64,000 nt of DNA from Erysipelotrichaceae bacterium (GTDB taxonomy: Bacteria > Bacillota_I > Bacilli_A > Erysipelotrichales > Erysipelotrichaceae): assembly GCA_022772735.1 (NCBI GenBank), contig JALEZD010000019.1, forward strand, positions 1 through 64,000, given 5' to 3'. The notes under the pieces were generated by a model. That model ran no database searches and was not told where the DNA came from. It worked only from the letters and a program-made list of their open reading frames with translations. Shown piece by piece: positions 1 through 36,015 of the stretch. Every line of letters starts with the position of its first letter. The stretch's first letter is position 1. A program made the position numbers and the translations under genes.

Positions 1-1459
1 ATAAAACATACCTCATACAAAAATTTTTTAATTGTTTGTTTTGGAATCATTTGAAACAACATAGCTATAAAACCCTTCGATAGTAGCTTTTTTAATATCG
101 ATAGTTTTGGAATCATTTGAAACAACATAGCTATAAAACATTTGAACACTTGATTCATGCCCAACACCTGTTTTGGAATCATTTGAAACAACATAGCTAT
201 AAAACAGCTTTCCAGCAACTGTAACAGGTCGTGTTGTTTTGGAATCATTTGAAACAACATAGCTATAAAACTTGATGTTCCGCTTATAGTGGTGAGAAGA
301 GGTTTTGGAATCATTTGAAACAACATAGCTATAAAACACCAAAGTAAGAGAGCTTTATTCTAGATAGGTTTTGGAATCATTTGAAACAACATAGCTATAA
401 AACTCAGCATTTGTCCACTCGCCTCGTATGAATGTTTTGGAATCATTTGAAACAACATAGCTATAAAACAACCAAGTGCCGATTTGATTAATAAAGTTAG
501 TTTTGGAATCATTTGAAACAACATAGCTATAAAACTGAAGCTCTATCCATAGATTTTTTGTTTCCGTTTTGGAATCATTTGAAACAACATAGCTATAAAA
601 CACTTTCAGGAGCATACATATGAGACCAAGCGTTTTGGAATCATTTGAAACAACATAGCTATAAAACTTGTCTAAAAGCCAAGTTAAGCCATTTATAGTT
701 TTGGAATCATTTGAAACAACATAGCTATAAAACAAGAATTTAGAAAACAATTATTAGCTATTTGTTTTGGAATCATTTGAAACAACATAGCTATAAAACC
801 TTGTATTTGGGTCTTTTTGTAAATTTATAGTTTTGGAATCATTTGAAACAACATAGCTATAAAACTAGTATTTTTAATCGATTATAAAAAGGAGGGTTTT
901 GGAATCATTTGAAACAACATAGCTATAAAACAAAGAACTAACACCACTTGATGAAGAATATGTTTTGGAATCATTTGAAACAACATAGCTATAAAACTAT
1001 ATAAACAAGACAAAGTTGCAAGTGTTTGTTTTGGAATCATTTGAAACAACATAGCTATAAAACTTTATTAGTACCTTACAATTAAAACCATCAGTTTTGG
1101 AATCATTTGAAACAACATAGCTATAAAACTCACTTTTTTTCACATCTCGTTGAACTGCTGTTTTGGAATCATTTGAAACAACATAGCTATAAAACACAAC
1201 ACACGGATACCCCGTTGTATCTGGAGTTTTGGAATCATTTGAAACAACATAGCTATAAAACTCAACACTAACAATTAAACCATCACCAATAGTTTTGGAA
1301 TCATTTGAAACAACATAGCTATAAAACTACGGAGAAGTGACAACAAAAGAAGTTTATGTTTTGGAATCATTTGAAACAACATAGCTATAAAACGTAATTG
1401 TAAAGGACATATATGCTTTTCATGTTTTGGAATCATTTGAAACAACATAGCTATAAAAC
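1..1459 (-). CRISPR. Type II-A CRISPR array, 22 full repeats, continues past left edge
   Basis: Full 36-bp repeats start at 38 and recur every 66 bp up to 1424-1459. The last 7 bases of a further repeat lie at 1-7, so the array continues outside the window. All 22 visible spacers (8-37 to 1394-1423) are 30 bp and the repeats look identical. On the minus strand the repeat begins GTTTTATAGCTATG and ends TGATTCCAAAAC, which is the S. pyogenes-type repeat. Transcription is therefore leftward, the newest spacers are at the right end, and the oldest, often degenerate, end is not seen. The array follows csn2 on the same strand. The 66-bp period is divisible by three, so long spurious reading frames run through it. 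Confidence 0.99.
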
Positions 1460-1539
1460 CTCGTACAATTTTTGAGGCTTCTTAATCGCGCTACTAATTC
1501 TAGCAAATTTTCAGTAATCAAATGTTCCTTTTTATACAT
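1460..1539 (-). promoter_or_regulatory. CRISPR leader
   Basis: This 80-bp stretch separates csn2 from the first repeat. Read on the minus strand, it ends GTACGAG directly against the repeat. TACGAG matches the leader-anchoring sequence that Cas1-Cas2 of type II-A systems uses to choose the leader end for integration. A possible -10 (minus strand TAGAAT, 1502-1497) would start transcription about 30 nt before the first repeat. The -35 is not clear. Confidence 0.8.
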
Positions 1540-2196
1540 TTATTCATGTCTTGAGAGATAAAAGTCATCATCAATCAAGTAATAATTTACATCATCTAAA
1601 GCTAATGTTTCAATAAATAATACTTTTTTATTTATTAATGATATATATTCTATAATAGATTTTATTTCATTTTCACTTAAAAATGCAAATGAATTTATAA
1701 ATATTAATAATTTCTTTCTAGATAAATATTTATATACTTGTATTATTTCAACGATTTTTTCATAAAATGTATCACTTAACGTCTCAATTTTAACCCCAAG
1801 TGATTCAATCAACTCTAAAATAGTTATTTCATCATATTCTAAATCCAATTCATTTTCTAATAATTCATAACTGATTAAATCTGTAATAGTCGATGAAAGG
1901 TTTTCTATCATTGTTTTAACTTCAGGCTTACTGTTTAATTGATTCTCTAAATCTTCATATATCAGTTTTAATACATTCTTTGAATTTACATCATATCCTA
2001 GTATATCTGTCACAATCATAACATCAGAATTTTTTACTTCTCTAAAATCTTTTTCATAAATCTTTAATGATCTTTCTTCACTATAAAAGTATAGTTCCCT
2101 AACGACTCTAGTAAACATATATTTATTTGAGAATACAATAACAGTTCCATTTTGAATTTCAATTGGCTCGTCAATCATTGGAAATCTAATTTTCAT
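1540..2196 (-). CDS. csn2: Csn2, type II-A adaptation protein
   Basis: Csn2 forms a ring-shaped tetramer that binds free double-stranded DNA ends and works with Cas1, Cas2 and Cas9 during spacer acquisition. Its presence defines subtype II-A. The call rests on position (last cas gene, directly before the leader), size (218 aa, like the short Csn2 family) and a typical beta-rich start ([14 protein letters not shown]) followed by a largely helical, acidic body. I choose the ATG at 2196 because AGGTG lies 6 nt upstream. A GTG three codons earlier (2205) is possible but would overlap that ribosome-binding site. The start overlaps the end of cas2, so translation is probably coupled. Confidence 0.88.
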
Positions 2197-2521
2197 ACTT
2201 TTCACCTAGATAAACTATTCTTTCTTCTGTATTTGAAATGCTTGAATTACAATCTCCACATAAATAAATCATCTTTGAAAACTGCTTTTCTGTAACAGTT
2301 AAAATACTTATTTTACCTTTAGAAGGATTATTATTATAAATTCTCTTAATCATTGCTAGATTTGCCGTTCCATTTAAAACTAACTTACTATATACAGAAA
2401 ATTGGTGCATAATAAATCCTTCATTAATCAAAAACTTTCTAAAAACTCTATATGCCTTCCTATCACTTGATGTTTCAACAGGCATATCAAACATTAAAAT
2501 TAATCTCATAAATCTACTCAT
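2186..2521 (-). CDS. cas2: CRISPR-associated endoribonuclease-fold protein Cas2
   Basis: Cas2 is the structural dimer at the centre of the Cas1-Cas2 integrase that inserts new spacers at the leader end. The protein has 111 aa with the usual ferredoxin-like beginning [11 protein letters not shown]; the conserved Asp is D12. A short loop and the strand [13 protein letters not shown] follow. The start codon overlaps the cas1 stop as ATGA, the classic coupled arrangement. The length is normal for type II Cas2 and nothing is missing. Confidence 0.96.
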
Positions 2522-3384
2522 ATTTTAAATTCTGGCAAATTTTTATCTTCGTTATTTAGTGACTTTACAAGTTTTTTCGTGTATTCCGATATAATATTAT
2601 TCAAATACATTTCTTTTTCATTAAAAATAAATTTTTTATTTATTTCTTCAAATAATGCCTTCTTCATATCTGGAAATGTTGTATATCTATTTTTATAAAT
2701 TGCATTATCTACAATAACTCTAAATGGCTCCATAAAATCACATGCTAAATTAAATTGATTAAATTGATTCGCATGTTTTAATCCTATTTGTGTTACACAC
2801 CCAGATGCAACAATTTCTCTAGCAAACATACTCATTATTATTGAATATCCATAATCTAATCCAGCATTAACATCTGTTGGACTATCTCTACAAAAATCAT
2901 TGCCAAACAACGTATTGAAATATATACGTGCTGCATGACCTTCCCTATTTGTTGGATCTAGTTTTTCTAAATTATTGTATAGTTCTTCTATTGATTCTGC
3001 TTTTTTGAGAAATTTTAAATTATTCAAATAAGCTATTTGATTACTAATTTTTTGAGAAATTATTTCAGTCCATACATGTGCCTTAAAGTCTTCATTCCAC
3101 AAAATTTGTTTTGACAACTGTAGACTACAGTCATGTTTAGCATAATATGGGCAAAGAAAGGATGATGGCAATCTCTTATCATCGCAGAAAATAACCAAAA
3201 TTTTTTCATCAATCAATCTTTTTAAAAGCATTGTAGTGACTGAAATATCCGTTGTTTCAAATAAGATTGTATCAATTTCAGAAAGGTGAATCATTTCAGT
3301 TTCTTCTATACTTTTAAACACAAGATGGTTGTTTTTGTATGAAACCTTTGAGTGCTTATTGATAATTAATGTTCTCCATCCCAT
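2518..3384 (-). CDS. cas1: CRISPR integrase Cas1
   Basis: Cas1 is the metal-dependent integrase that joins prespacers to the leader-proximal repeat. The 288-aa protein has the N-terminal beta domain ([16 protein letters not shown]) and the helical catalytic domain. The metal ligands are visible: E148 in NREGHAAR, H204 in QIGLKHANQ and E219 in CDFMEPFR, at almost the same positions as in S. pyogenes Cas1. It lies 5 nt after the cas9 stop and overlaps cas2 by 4 nt, so the four cas genes form one leftward operon. It appears intact, so adaptation should be functional. Confidence 0.97.
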
Positions 3385-3389
3385 AAAAA

Positions 3390-6300
3390 TTATTTCCTCA
3401 AATCAATTCTTGTTTCAAAAATTCCAGTACATGATTTAAAAACAATTACTCCATTTGAACATTCTGATGTGGAATTATATCTTTTTCTATCTATATCTTT
3501 GTCAAAAAATTTGAATGCACTTGCTGCACCTGTAGATGTAAAAGACATTAAATTAACAAATGACTTAGCAATAACTTTTATATTTTCATTATTTTTTGCT
3601 TCAAATATTTGCTTTATAATGTTTAGATTGCTTTCTGCATCTAGATATTTACTTGAAAAATCACAAACAATTTTAAAAAGCTCTTTAAATAGATATCTAT
3701 TATCTTCTAAATACCTAACACTCTCATAACTATCTATATCTTCACACTTTGTGCAGTGATAGATTAATTTAACAAATTTTTCACTTAAAACAAAGTTATT
3801 CGCCTTTTGTAATTCATTACCACTTGCAACATACCTCTGTTTTCCATCATCAAATTCAAATAAAGTATACTTAGGTAATTTATAAAAATACTTTATATTA
3901 TTAAAACCTTTTGATTTTAAAAATTCAATTTCATTCCTACAATAATCTTCTTTTTCTAAAATACTTATGCTAACTAGTTTTATCTTTTCTTTGTTTTTAT
4001 CTATGTATTTTAAGGCAACTGCAAATGCAGTTTTTGGATTATCAAAACCACCGTACTTCAATATATCAAGACCTTTTTTTCTCTCAATTGAGACTCCTTT
4101 TTCTTTTTTTGACCAAGCTGTTAAATTTGAAAAAGCTCCCTTTTGTATTTCTGTTTTCTTAACTATATTTATTTGACTATTGTAAATGACTTTTTTAATA
4201 ATATGTAAACTTGAGTCTCTATCCCATAGTATTTCACCACTTTCCGAATTTAATATTGTATCCTTAGAGAAAAATCTCATTAAATTTGAAAACAAATTCT
4301 TTCTTGCGGTTGCTTTATTTTCATTATGTAAATTTATTTTAGTATATTCTCCATAAACAAACTCTGGCATTAATTTTGGATAAACTTTTAATAATGATAT
4401 TCCAATAACTGCATTTAAATATGCATCATGTGCATGATGAAAATTATTAATTTCTCTAACTTTATAAATCTCAAAAGTTTCTCTAAATTCTGATGCCATT
4501 GCAGATTTAAGCGTAATGATTTTAGTCTGCTTATTTTCCTTGTTTAAATTAAATCTTTCATCAAGTATTCTCGCAACATTTTTAGTAATTTGTCTTGTTT
4601 CAACTAATTGTCTTTTGATAAATCCTGCTTTATCATCGTCAGTTAATCCACCTCTTAGCGATTTAGTTAAATTGCTAAACTTCCTTTCACTAATAAGTCC
4701 ACATTCTTTTAACTTTTTCCAAAAGCCAATCATTTTATTAACTATATCTATGCTAGGTACATCATTAGTTTTTAATCTGTTCTTTTTATCAGAAACTAAT
4801 ACTTTGTTATCAATTGAATTATCCACAATAAAACTTCTAGGTATAATATGATCAACATCATAACTAGATAATTTATTAATATCTATTTCATCTCCAGTAT
4901 ACATATCCTTACCATTTTGAAGATAATATAAGTATAATTTTTCACTCTGTAAATCATTTTTATTTGTTAAAGGATTTTCTTTTAATAATTCACTTTCTAG
5001 TCGTTTTATTCCCTCTTCTATTTTTTTGAATCTTTCTCTAGATTGCTTTTTCCCATAGTCTGTAGTTTGATTTTCTCTTGCCATCTCAATAACAATATTT
5101 TTAGGCGCATATCCCATGACTTTAACAAGTTCATCAACTATTTTTAAACTTTGTAAAATACCTTTCTTTATTGCTGGACTACCTGCAATTTTATAAACTG
5201 TTTCTTCAATTGATTCCTTAATATTATTCTTATTTTCATCATCAATAACTTTTTTAAATATCAAATCATCATCATTTATCAACTGCATAAAGTTTCTATT
5301 AATTGGCCCTTTTGGTCCATCATCATCCATCAAATAATCTAAAATTGTTTTACCTGATGCATTATTTACTATTCCATTTATTAGTTTCTTTGATAGTCTT
5401 CCCCATCCAGTGTAATTCTTCTTAGATAAATCATTCAAAGTAGACTCTTTAAAAAGTTTGTTAAACTTTTCTAGCTGTTTTCTTTTCATTTTTTTATCAT
5501 CAAATATTGTTAATATTTTAATAATTTCTTCTAAACTTTCTTCTACATCATTAGAAATATTTTCGCAATCTAAAATATTTTTTACCTCATTAATTTTGTA
5601 CAAATCATGATATACAGAAAAATTAGAATTAAAACTTTCTTCAATACCTTCTATTGAAACAACATTAAGACCAAGCTCTAATTGTAAATATTTTTTTAAT
5701 TTATCCCCTGTAACTTTCCTATATTTTTTGAATAAATTATTAAATATTTTTAATTTTGTTTTAGAATCAAAAAGGTTTCTTTTTCCATTTTTATCAATAT
5801 ATGAAACTTTAGTTAATTCATTAAAAATCATATATTTTTGATAAATAATACTATTTTTAGGTAAAACCTTTTCATTTGATAAATATGTATCATTTAATGT
5901 CATTCTTTCAATGAAACTAATTGAAGATTTATTTATATCGACTAAATCATCAAAATTCCATGGTCTAATATTCCCCTCTTTTCTTGTTAGCCATGAAAAC
6001 TCACTACTAATACGAGGCCCTATATCAAGAGGTCCAACATAATAAGGAATTCTAAAAGTTAAAATATCACACATTTTATTTAGATTATCCTTTAAAAATG
6101 GATAATGAACTCCTTGATTTTTGATAATACTTCTAAATTCAGATAAATGAACTTGATTAGGTATAGACCCATTTTCATAACTTCTTTGTTTTTTTAAGAA
6201 GTTTTCGCTATCTATTTTTTCTATAAAATACTGTGCATCTTCTCTCTCAGAAAGTTTGTTTTTTACATATTTGTAAAATTTTTCTTGAGTTGTTTTCCCT

Positions 6301-7403
6301 TCAATATACCCTGCATATCCATCAAGTTTTTCATCTCTAAACATATTATTATATTCTTGTTTAGAAAAATTTTTATTGATGTATTTTTTAAATTTTTTCA
6401 AATCACTATTGTGCTCATTATATTTATTAATCATTGAATCAGATAATTTTGAACGAGAAAACTGTAAATCCTCACTAAAAATATCTGATAATATTATTGC
6501 ATTATAAACATTAAATGCACTTAAAAATAAGTCAATATAATCATCACCAATTATCGATAATAAACCATCTAAATCATCTTCATATGAGCTTGATGGTATT
6601 TGAACTTTTGCTTCATCATCTAAATTAAAAACACTTTTGAAATTACCTTGATTACCTACTATATACTTCAAAAATACACCAAATTTACCATTAGCTTTTT
6701 GATTCTTATAAAGTTTTACAACCTCTTCAACTTTTTTTGTTTTACTAACTTTACTAGTTAAAATTTTTGAAACATCTATAGAATTATCAATATATTCTTC
6801 ACTATTGTCTAAGTATATAACTTTGTTAAACTCATCAACAAACTTTTTAAATGTATTATTGACAGATATATCTTCTAAATTTAGCTCTCCTTCAATTAAA
6901 AAGTTACCTCTGAATTTAACAATATGCGCTAAAGCCAAATAAATAAGTCGTATATCAGCCTTTTCATCTGTTTCTATTAGGTGTTTTCTCAAATGATAAA
7001 TAGTTTTAAATTTATTATGAAATTCCCTTTCTTCAGCTTCTGTTTTAAAAATTGTATATTTTTCAAATTTTTTATCATCTTCAGTAAAGAAACTCTCATC
7101 TAGTCTATGAAAAAAGCTTTCATCAATTTTACCAATTTCATTAGAAAATATTTCTCTAAGATAGTTTAATCGATTTCTTCTTCTGGTGTACCTTCTTCTT
7201 GTAGTGCGTGCAATCCTTCTATCTGCTGCAGTTTTTCCTTCATCAAAAAGTTCTACACCAATTAAATTCTTTTTCTTATACTTTTTATCTGTATTTCCTA
7301 AAACTTTAACTTTTTTGGATGGTACATTATAGTCATCATAAATCACAGAATATCCAACTGAATTTGTACCAATGTCTAACCCTATTGTATAATCCTTTCG
7401 CAT
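3390..7403 (-). CDS. cas9: Cas9, RNA-guided DNA endonuclease (SpCas9-like, type II-A)
   Basis: This is the crRNA:tracrRNA-guided nuclease that cuts both strands of the target. At 1337 aa it is close to S. pyogenes Cas9 (1368 aa). RuvC-I is at the N-terminus (D10 in [11 protein letters not shown]). The Arg-rich bridge helix lies around residues 60-90. RuvC-II has E773 (VIEMAREN), HNH has H852 ([10 protein letters not shown]), and RuvC-III has H990 and D993 ([10 protein letters not shown]). The C-terminal PAM domain keeps DRKRYNST with R1306 and R1308, equivalent to SpCas9 R1333 and R1335, and ends FETRIDLRK. All catalytic residues are present. The ribosome-binding site GGAGGG lies just upstream, and the promoter shares the 7404-7481 gap with the tracrRNA. 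Confidence 0.99.
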
Positions 7404-33880: not shown

Positions 33881-34140
33881 TTGACAATTTAGTTACAAAT
33901 CTTTTAAAATAGCAATACAAAGCTATGAAAAAGGCTAAGTAAATACATGTAATTTTTAGAGAAATGATGTTTGGTGCAAATCATTAATTAATTGTATTGA
34001 AATCTACCTTTGAGTTGAAGTAAAACTTCACGGGGCATCCGTTATATGTATTGAGTGATTAAATTGTTTCACGTGAAACAATTTAATAATAAGGGTGGCA
34101 ACACGGGTTATATCGTCCCTATTTATATAGGGATTTTTTA
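33881..34140 (+). promoter_or_regulatory. Promoter and serine T-box riboswitch controlling serS
   Basis: Promoter TTGACA (33881-33886), 18 bp, TAAAAT (33905-33910). The leader RNA starts near 33917. Stem I is closed by AATACATGTAA pairing with TTATATGTATT. The specifier is UCU, a serine codon, at 34003-34005, in the usual context before ACCTTTGAG. The T-box AGGGTGGCAACACGG is at 34092-34106. The terminator is TCCCTAT-TTAT-ATAGGGA plus six T (34116-34139). Uncharged tRNA-Ser should stabilise the antiterminator and switch serS on. The stem just before the T-box is the parS palindrome at 34061-34084. Confidence 0.95.
34061..34084. other. parS: parS centromere site 1, inside the serS T-box leader
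   Basis: The 16-bp core TGTTTCACGTGAAACA (34065-34080) is a perfect match to the ParB/Spo0J-binding site. It is extended to a 24-bp perfect palindrome. Its place about 12 kb from oriC fits chromosome segregation. parA/parB are not in the window. Confidence 0.93.
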
Positions 34141-34156: not shown

Positions 34157-35434
34157 ATGTTAGATATTAAATTGATAAGAGAAAATCCGGATTTAGTTAA
34201 AGAAAACATAAAAAAGAAATTTCAAGATAGCAAACTAAACTTAGTGGATGAAGTTATTGAACTAGATAGTAAATATAGACTTACAAAAACTAAAGCTGAT
34301 GACCTTAGATCTGAGAGAAATAGCAGTTCAAAAAACATTGGATTACTTATGAGAGAAGGTAAAAAAGAAGAAGCAGAATTGATAAAATCAAGAATAAGCG
34401 AAATTAATAGTGAAATTGAAAAATTAGAAGTTGAAGAAGAGCATTTATCAAAAGAAATAAAAAATAGAATGTTGGTTATACCAAATATAATTGATGAGAG
34501 TGTTCCAATTGGTAAAGATGACAGCGAAAATGTAGAAATTGAAAAATTTGGAGAACCACTTTTAAAAAGTTTTGATGTTCCATATCACACAGATATTATG
34601 GAAAGACTAAATGGCATAGATTTAGATGCTGCAAGAAAAACAAGTGGTAATGGATTTTACTATTTAATGGGTGATGTAGCTAGATTACATTCTGCAATTT
34701 TATCTTATGCAAGAGATTTTATGATTGATAGAGGTTTTACATATGTAATACCTCCATATATGATACATAGCAATATAGTAACCGGAGTTATGAGTTTTTC
34801 AGAAATGGAAAATATGATGTATAAAATTGAAGGTGAAGATTTATATTTGATTGGTACAAGTGAACATTCAATGATTGGAAAATATATTGATACAATTATC
34901 AATGAAAATACTTTGCCTCAAACATTAACAAGTTATTCTCCGTGTTTTAGAAAAGAAGTTGGTGCACATGGAATAGAAGAAAGAGGAGTTTATAGAATTC
35001 ATCAATTTGAAAAACAAGAAATGATTGTTGTATGTAAACCAGAAGATTCTATGTATTGGTACAATCAATTGTGGAAAAATACTGTAGATTTCTTTAGAAC
35101 TTTGGATATACCAGTTAGAACATTAGAGTGTTGTTCAGGTGATTTGGCAGATTTAAAAGTAAAAAGTTGTGATGTTGAGGCATGGTCACCAAGACAAAAG
35201 AAATACTTTGAAATAGGAAGTTGTTCTAATTTGGGTGATGCACAGGCTAGAAGACTTGGGATAAGAGTTAATGGTGAAAATGGAAAATATTTTGCGCATA
35301 CTTTAAATAATACAGTCGTAGCACCTCCAAGAATGTTAATTGCATTTTTAGAAAATAATTTAAATGAAGATGGAAGTGTAAATATTCCTGAAGCATTAAG
35401 ACCATATATGGGCAATAAACAAAAGATAGGATAA
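34157..35434 (+). CDS. serS: Seryl-tRNA synthetase
   Basis: A class II synthetase that charges tRNA-Ser. It has 425 aa: an N-terminal antiparallel coiled-coil arm (about 30-105, rich in Lys/Glu heptads) that grips the long variable arm of tRNA-Ser, then the catalytic core with motif 2 SPCFRKEVGAHG and motif 3 VVAPPRMLIAFLEN. The ATG at 34157 follows GGAGGAG. The frame is open further upstream, but that part is the T-box leader. Controlled by the T-box; ends against the second parS site. Confidence 0.98.
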   Translation: MLDIKLIRENPDLVKENIKKKFQDSKLNLVDEVIELDSKYRLTKTKADDLRSERNSSSKNIGLLMREGKKEEAELIKSRISEINSEIEKLEVEEEHLSKEIKNRMLVIPNIIDESVPIGKDDSENVEIEKFGEPLLKSFDVPYHTDIMERLNGIDLDAARKTSGNGFYYLMGDVARLHSAILSYARDFMIDRGFTYVIPPYMIHSNIVTGVMSFSEMENMMYKIEGEDLYLIGTSEHSMIGKYIDTIINENTLPQTLTSYSPCFRKEVGAHGIEERGVYRIHQFEKQEMIVVCKPEDSMYWYNQLWKNTVDFFRTLDIPVRTLECCSGDLADLKVKSCDVEAWSPRQKKYFEIGSCSNLGDAQARRLGIRVNGENGKYFAHTLNNTVVAPPRMLIAFLENNLNEDGSVNIPEALRPYMGNKQKIG

Positions 35435-36015
35435 TGTTTCACGTGAAACAAATTGTTTTAGAAACAGAAAGATTAATAATACGCAGTTTTAATGAAAGCG
35501 ATCTAGATTATATATTTGAAATATTTAGTGATTTAGAAGTAAATAAATATTTACCTTGGTTTCCATTAAAGACAAAAGAAGATGCTTTATTGTTTTATAA
35601 CAAAAATTATGTTGAAAGTAAAAATAAATATAGTTTTGCGATATGTTTAAAAGAAAATAATATTCCTATAGGATATATAAATGTTTTAACAGAGGATAGT
35701 TACGATTTTGGTTATGGTCTTTTGAAAAAATATTGGAATAAAGGTATAACAAGTGAAGCGTGTATTAAGGTTATAGAGTTTATAAAAAGTTTAGGGATAC
35801 CTTTTATAACTGCAACACATGATGTAAATAATATTCATAGTGGAAATGTTATGAAAAAATTAGGAATGAAATATAAATACTCTTATGAAGAAAATTGGCA
35901 ACCAAAAAATATTTTAGTTACATTTAGAATGTATCAAATGAATTTTAAAGATGAAAATTATGTTTATTTAAAATATTGGGATATTTCAAATAAAAAATAT
36001 ATTGAATCAATTTAG
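35434..36015 (+). CDS. GNAT acetyltransferase, RimJ/RimL type
   Basis: A 193-aa N-acetyltransferase: LETERLIIRSFNESDLDYIFEIFSD at the N-terminus, the GYGLLKKYWNKGITSEAC acetyl-CoA loop, and the ATHDVNNIHSGNVMKKLGMKY motif typical of ribosomal-protein-acetyltransferase relatives. The target is unknown. The ATG at 35434 shares a base with the serS stop, and its first codons (MFHVKQ) are simply the translation of the parS site. The natural product may start there, with AGGAT upstream, or this extension may be a by-product of the parS position. Confidence 0.85.
   Translation: MFHVKQIVLETERLIIRSFNESDLDYIFEIFSDLEVNKYLPWFPLKTKEDALLFYNKNYVESKNKYSFAICLKENNIPIGYINVLTEDSYDFGYGLLKKYWNKGITSEACIKVIEFIKSLGIPFITATHDVNNIHSGNVMKKLGMKYKYSYEENWQPKNILVTFRMYQMNFKDENYVYLKYWDISNKKYIESI
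35435..35450. other. parS: parS centromere site 2, at the serS-acetyltransferase junction
   Basis: A second exact TGTTTCACGTGAAACA, 1370 bp from the first. It occupies the first codons of the acetyltransferase gene. Two close copies near the origin would nucleate ParB spreading. Confidence 0.93.

Follow-up and report, generated by a model that had tools for sequence, protein, structure and literature searches.

Can one stretch of DNA serve both as a site of chromosome segregation and as a helix of a riboswitch? This question is raised by the leader of serS, the seryl-tRNA synthetase gene, in an Erysipelotrichaceae genome, where the binding site of the segregation protein ParB (parS) lies inside a T-box. 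T-boxes and parS are each well known already. Descriptions of chromosomal parS normally treat it as a DNA site and nothing more, whereas here it coincides with one helix of a transcribed riboswitch. Two reviews (PMC7583486; PMC7022226) do not mention parS within a riboswitch. In addition, the open-access literature searched yielded no account of a parS that forms a riboswitch helix, whether for T-boxes, for serS or for the Erysipelotrichaceae.

The palindrome in the serS leader

The 64,000-nt window, which is the whole stretch of DNA that was analysed, is the origin region of a 1.79-Mb low-GC genome; its features are collected in Table 1. At one end of the window (38-7403), 20 kb from dnaA, lies a CRISPR array with 66-bp spacing and 22 matches to the Rfam family CRISPR-DR22, adjoined by a gene for a 1337-amino-acid Cas9-like protein and by smaller open reading frames.

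The preliminary description of this DNA had read a UCU specifier, a T-box and a terminator in the serS leader, and all three were located. The leader matches the RF00230 model over its full length, scoring 119.9 bits where the gathering threshold is 93, and the specifier corresponds to the amino acid of the regulated gene. The putative promoter, called by consensus match only, lies directly 5' of the leader. Within the T-box sequence, UGGC at 34096-34099 could pair with the GCCA end of a tRNA. A T-box UGGC pairs with tRNA-Ser bearing G as the discriminator base.

Table 1. Features of the serS leader and its surroundings (window positions unless a contig is named)
Feature	Position	Strand	Basis or remark
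Putative promoter of the serS transcription unit	33881..33910	+	TTGACA, 18-nt spacer, TAAAAT; 11/12 consensus matches
serS T-box riboswitch leader	33916..34123	+	Rfam RF00230, 119.9 bits, E 5.8e-26
Specifier codon UCU (serine)	34003..34005	+	read in the stem I specifier loop, GAAA-UCU-ACC
GAGUG, 5' purine element (RRRxG) of the tRNA-aminoacylation sensor	34053..34057	+	sequence; motif from PMC7583486
30-bp perfect palindrome ATTAAATTGTTTCACGTGAAACAATTTAAT, T-box stem III as RNA	34058..34087	.	palindrome test, fold, Rfam alignment, flank covariation
parS TGTTTCACGTGAAACA, leader copy	34065..34080	.	exact 16-bp consensus match
AA, 3' part of the purine motif around stem III	34088..34089	+	sequence; motif from PMC7583486
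T-box sequence GGGUGGCAACACGG	34093..34106	+	Rfam alignment
Intrinsic terminator, 3' of parS	34115..34140	+	8-bp stem 34115-34134, then T-run
serS, seryl-tRNA synthetase	34157..35434	+	TIGR00414, 417 bits, above cut-off
Second exact parS	35435..35450	.	exact match, directly after the serS stop
noc-like, parA, parB cluster	C18:80165-82572		on the contig shared with the serS leader
Other window genes: dnaA, dnaN, recF, gyrB, gyrA, tadA, SRP RNA, dnaX, recR, mnmG			assigned, like serS, by their own sequences

A 24-bp perfect palindrome containing the exact ParB site had also been described at the place of stem III. The exact parS is present, and the Rfam alignment agrees with the placement, since the model puts its stem III on the palindrome. 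The palindrome is indeed perfect, but it is 30 bp long, and the 24 bp at 34061-34084 are its inner part. Similarly, the hairpin that had been expected as RNA is predicted by folding, with a stem of 13 bp instead of 12 and a 4-nt loop, both in the full leader and for the palindrome alone. No other perfect palindrome of 18 bp or more occurs in the window, and the longest one in 60 Markov-simulated windows measured 22 bp.

The palindrome is framed exactly as stem III is in the motif of the T-box aminoacylation sensor, RRRxG-stem III-AA (PMC7583486): GAGUG directly precedes it and AA directly follows. The leader resembles other transcriptional T-boxes of the serS class in its stem I with a serine specifier, its stem II elements, its T-box/antiterminator, its terminator and a stem III held between RRRxG and AA. 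It differs from other serS T-boxes in the stem III itself, which in those is usually shorter and free in sequence, whereas here it consists of a fixed 16 bp, equal to parS, with covarying flanks.

parS sites in this genome and its relatives

Exact parS occurs only twice in the 1.79-Mb assembly, at 34065 and 35435, on either side of serS. For the exact 14-mer GTTTCACGTGAAAC, two copies were found against 0.003 expected from genome size and composition. The leader copy is about 12 kb from dnaA; in two relatives with single-contig genomes the distance is 9-11 kb. The ParB encoded by the noc-like, parA, parB cluster is homologous to Spo0J of B. subtilis (PDB 6sdk, E 2e-58), and ParB-family genes were present in all 55 genomes tested. 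The locus is like known chromosomal ParABS systems in the exact 16-bp consensus, the nearness to dnaA, the small number of copies and the genes for ParB, ParA and Noc. A chance origin of parS in the leader was rejected on the grounds of this genome count, the palindrome simulation and the reversed-pattern control of the family-wide count given below.

In 45 related genomes, the exact 14-mer was counted between 0 and 4 times per genome and its reversed control never; the exact 14-mers adjoin serS wherever the position of serS is known. In one genome that is 95% complete (G607), the T-box stem is the single parS site even with one mismatch allowed. Allowing one mismatch adds a second site in two others (G280 and G303), about 400 bp from the leader parS. 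In G280 this is the parS-like sequence GTTCCACGTGAAAC at position 1767 of locus L300, downstream of the leader copy and within the serS coding sequence, where it encodes NVPRET.

Sites at the equivalent place after serS are common in relatives. In the genome studied here, the second parS encodes MFHVKQ, the first residues of a GNAT-like open reading frame (35434-36015) whose ATG overlaps the serS stop codon. To judge from this reading frame, the second copy may be doubly used too, as a DNA site and as coding sequence.

The arrangement of the leader is widespread in the family. A parS 4-34 nt upstream of a T-box sequence was found in 105 of 273 family genomes, a count that includes at least two cases outside stem III (G128 and G215), and the reversed-pattern control gave none. 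Among the good genomes of the family, 69 of 152 have the arrangement, and by genus it is present in 20 of 60; genomes named Solobacterium, Holdemania and Erysipelothrix are among the relatives that share it. A class-wide search detected it in four further families and, in each of two small orders, in three of four genomes. The distance from the start of parS to serS is 83-123 nt in the leaders retrieved, and the T-box comes 20-45 nt downstream of that start. Rfam confirmed the T-boxes of relatives with 97-137 bits and placed stem III on parS in the alignments printed. Nearly all leaders examined are serS T-boxes. Outside the class of the Erysipelotrichaceae, the collection scan showed no T-box consensus at other matches, among the matches listed. 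One actinomycetotal locus (L001) that fits the loose T-box pattern was set aside; it has two parS sites in a high-GC region and no adjoining serS.

The preliminary description had proposed a comparison of serS leaders to see whether stem III is parS in each relative. This holds for 96 distinct leaders, drawn from 23 genera, but not for every relative. A UCN codon stands at the position equivalent to the specifier in 77 of the 96, as counted with a simple pattern (UCC 55, UCU 13, UCA 6, UCG 3). These leaders share descent and one genus contributes 45 of them, so that sequence counts are not counts of independent events. Two Erysipelothrix-type genomes of genus g25 (G144 and G148; loci L312 and L313), which were missed by the exact patterns, have as stem III the sequence TGTTCCACGTGGAACA, a paired, symmetric double change of parS, and a further site, GTTTCACGTGGAAC, downstream of serS. 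The change in TGTTCCACGTGGAACA falls where ParB half-sites vary between GTTTCAC and GTTCCAC (PMC7022226).

A further 44 serS T-boxes lack parS in the leader, and many of these loci carry it just after serS instead. Their stem III is unrelated in sequence, usually shorter, or missing, which argues that parS is not simply a requirement of the T-box; one clade, judging by its leader sequences, seems to have lost stem III. At locus L029 (G215), parS is retained between gyrA and serS and no T-box was detected there. At L242, the stem III contains what looks like a decayed parS. Either element can be lost while the other persists, and the many relatives with a serS T-box and no parS indicate that neither function requires the other. 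A genome of the clade whose serS leaders have no stem III (G128, locus L311) has an exact parS further upstream, at reverse-strand position 833, apparently in the stem IIA/B part of the leader; this region gave no Rfam match at the gathering score.

When the presence of a parS-bearing T-box was mapped on a FastTree phylogeny of 146 SerRS proteins, 3 changes sufficed, against a mean of 41.7 for shuffled labels, which points to an ancient state lost several times. The arrangement was probably ancestral to several families of the class and lost a few times, its age being what we infer from a SerRS tree, which is not a species tree. The same type of leader is common to two SerRS lineages that are about 35% identical. 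The divergent SerRS (genus g58; families f7, f10, f18 and f25) has this low identity to the proteins of other family members, and its parS-bearing T-box leader is alike. This suggests either that the coding sequence was replaced under a conserved leader or that gene and leader were transferred together.

Two probable roles for one sequence

These observations favour the reading that a single sequence at 34058-34087 does two independent things, loading ParB as DNA and forming T-box stem III as RNA; we put its probability at roughly 0.85. The suggestion in the preliminary description that a single sequence serves both segregation and tRNA sensing is in this way strongly supported by comparison across the 96 leaders, with the restriction that the 44 parS-free T-boxes set to it. 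Under the dual reading, ParB would load at the 16-bp core and spread, while the whole palindrome, once transcribed, would be the helix held between the two purine elements. This would be economical: a T-box needs a helix with pairing but free sequence, and the parS palindrome would supply one. We infer that ParB binds this site, that the stem also forms in vivo and that the leader copy performs both functions. From the anatomy, with the terminator downstream, the leader parS would be transcribed whichever state the switch is in; transcription from the serS promoter would reach the copy behind serS only on read-through.

This geometry also bears on a possible coupling of the two roles, in which ParB at the leader parS would act on RNA polymerase, or transcription of serS would remodel the ParB complex, so that segregation would respond to serine-tRNA status and vice versa. 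The preliminary description had raised one such effect, in which ParB at this site could impede elongation of the leader transcript. ParB could also, for example, slow the polymerase before stem III and the T-box are made and so give the tRNA time to bind. The position of parS between promoter and terminator, transcribed in either state while the second copy depends on read-through, would suit such coupling, as would the long conservation of the arrangement, and two parS sites of P. aeruginosa have neighbouring promoters that ParB represses (PMC7022226). Conservation is explicable without coupling, however, and relatives exist with the T-box and no leader parS, and with parS and no T-box. Moreover, loss of Spo0J in B. 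subtilis leaves the expression of genes next to parS unchanged (PMC7022226). We therefore consider coupling unlikely. If it were true, with ParB acting just ahead of the tRNA-sensing decision or with serS transcription during serine starvation remodelling the ParB complex, translation capacity would be linked to chromosome segregation via one sequence.

The comparison of core and flanks weighs on the next alternative, that parS merely sits in the leader as a DNA site, its palindrome tolerated by the T-box and its RNA hairpin not selected. The 16-bp core is exact in 88 of the 96 distinct leaders, a figure partly set by the leader search, which admitted few one-base core variants; independently of that search, the stem IIIs of other serS T-boxes bear no resemblance to this core. 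The variants are TGTTTCACGGGAAACA (three leaders), TGTTTCACGTGAAACG (two) and three singletons. Such one-sided core changes, which break a pair, are tolerated in these 8 leaders, as this alternative would allow, and so is the apparent complete loss of stem III in one serS T-box clade. Most of the 8 have an exact parS after serS, indicating that the leader copy can be dispensable.

The flanks point the other way. Positions 9, 10, 11, 12 and 15 from the dyad form Watson-Crick pairs in 89, 94, 72, 60 and 52% of leaders, against 50, 84, 38, 28 and 28% with shuffled partners, and at each position none of 500 shuffles reached the observed value. This compensatory pairing sets the T-box copy apart: across 113 further parS sites of the same loci, mostly just after serS, pairing was 69% at position 9 (shuffled 48%) and 53, 38 and 37% at positions 10-12 (shuffled 49, 31 and 30%). 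With one leader per genus and G-U pairs included, positions 9-12 were paired in 95, 95, 86 and 70%. Over all leaders, again with G-U, mean pairing was 85%, compared with 26-54% for slid partners. The stem is also framed by the conserved RRRxG and AA in 65 of 96 parS-type leaders under a strict definition and in 84 of 96 under a relaxed one, against 7 and 17 of 105 non-T-box parS sites. In addition, stem III was reported to be indispensable in the T-boxes studied (PMC7583486). A purely DNA-level site is accordingly very improbable. The exact core, taken with flank covariation that is specific to the T-box copy, looks like the outcome of two constraints, one on the core at the DNA level and one on the longer stem at the RNA level.

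The converse, that the palindrome is nothing but a stem III hairpin with a coincidental or functionless match to parS, has next to no probability. A stem III is a normal part of T-boxes and could be formed by any palindrome, but the identical 16 bp recurs in 23 genera, whereas the sequence of other stem IIIs varies freely. These 16 bp also equal the parS sites outside the T-box in their own genomes and are otherwise nearly absent from them, and in one genome (G272) both copies bear an identical one-base variant. That variant, GTTACACGTGAAAC, is shared by the T-box copy and the post-serS copy (locus L152) and breaks a pair of the RNA stem. An altered ParB specificity was considered as its cause and rejected, the helix-turn-helix stretch showing no obvious change relative to G271, which has exact sites; the shared variant therefore counts as modest evidence only.

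Sites away from the T-box touch on RNA as well. The non-T-box parS sites of L171 (at -288 from serS), L273, L274, L218, L240, L184 and L205 are long palindromes followed by T-runs and, by their sequences, look like intrinsic terminators. In this group, parS seems to have merged repeatedly with RNA hairpins. A known counterpart is found in Neisseria and Haemophilus, where pairs of uptake sequences act as transcription terminators. There too, one inverted repeat is read as DNA by a protein and acts as a hairpin in the transcript; the serS leader differs in that its RNA element is the sensing helix of a riboswitch and its DNA element a segregation site.

Under the dual reading, the same bases would make up a segregation site and a riboswitch helix in several bacterial families, and selection would have left separate signatures on the DNA and on the RNA. 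Such loci would offer natural tests of two questions: whether transcription through parS is tolerated or even exploited in ParB loading, and how a stem III of fixed sequence is accommodated by a riboswitch. They would also provide an example of DNA palindromes and RNA hairpins merging in evolution, and T-box annotations could guide the search for parS positions in poorly studied relatives.
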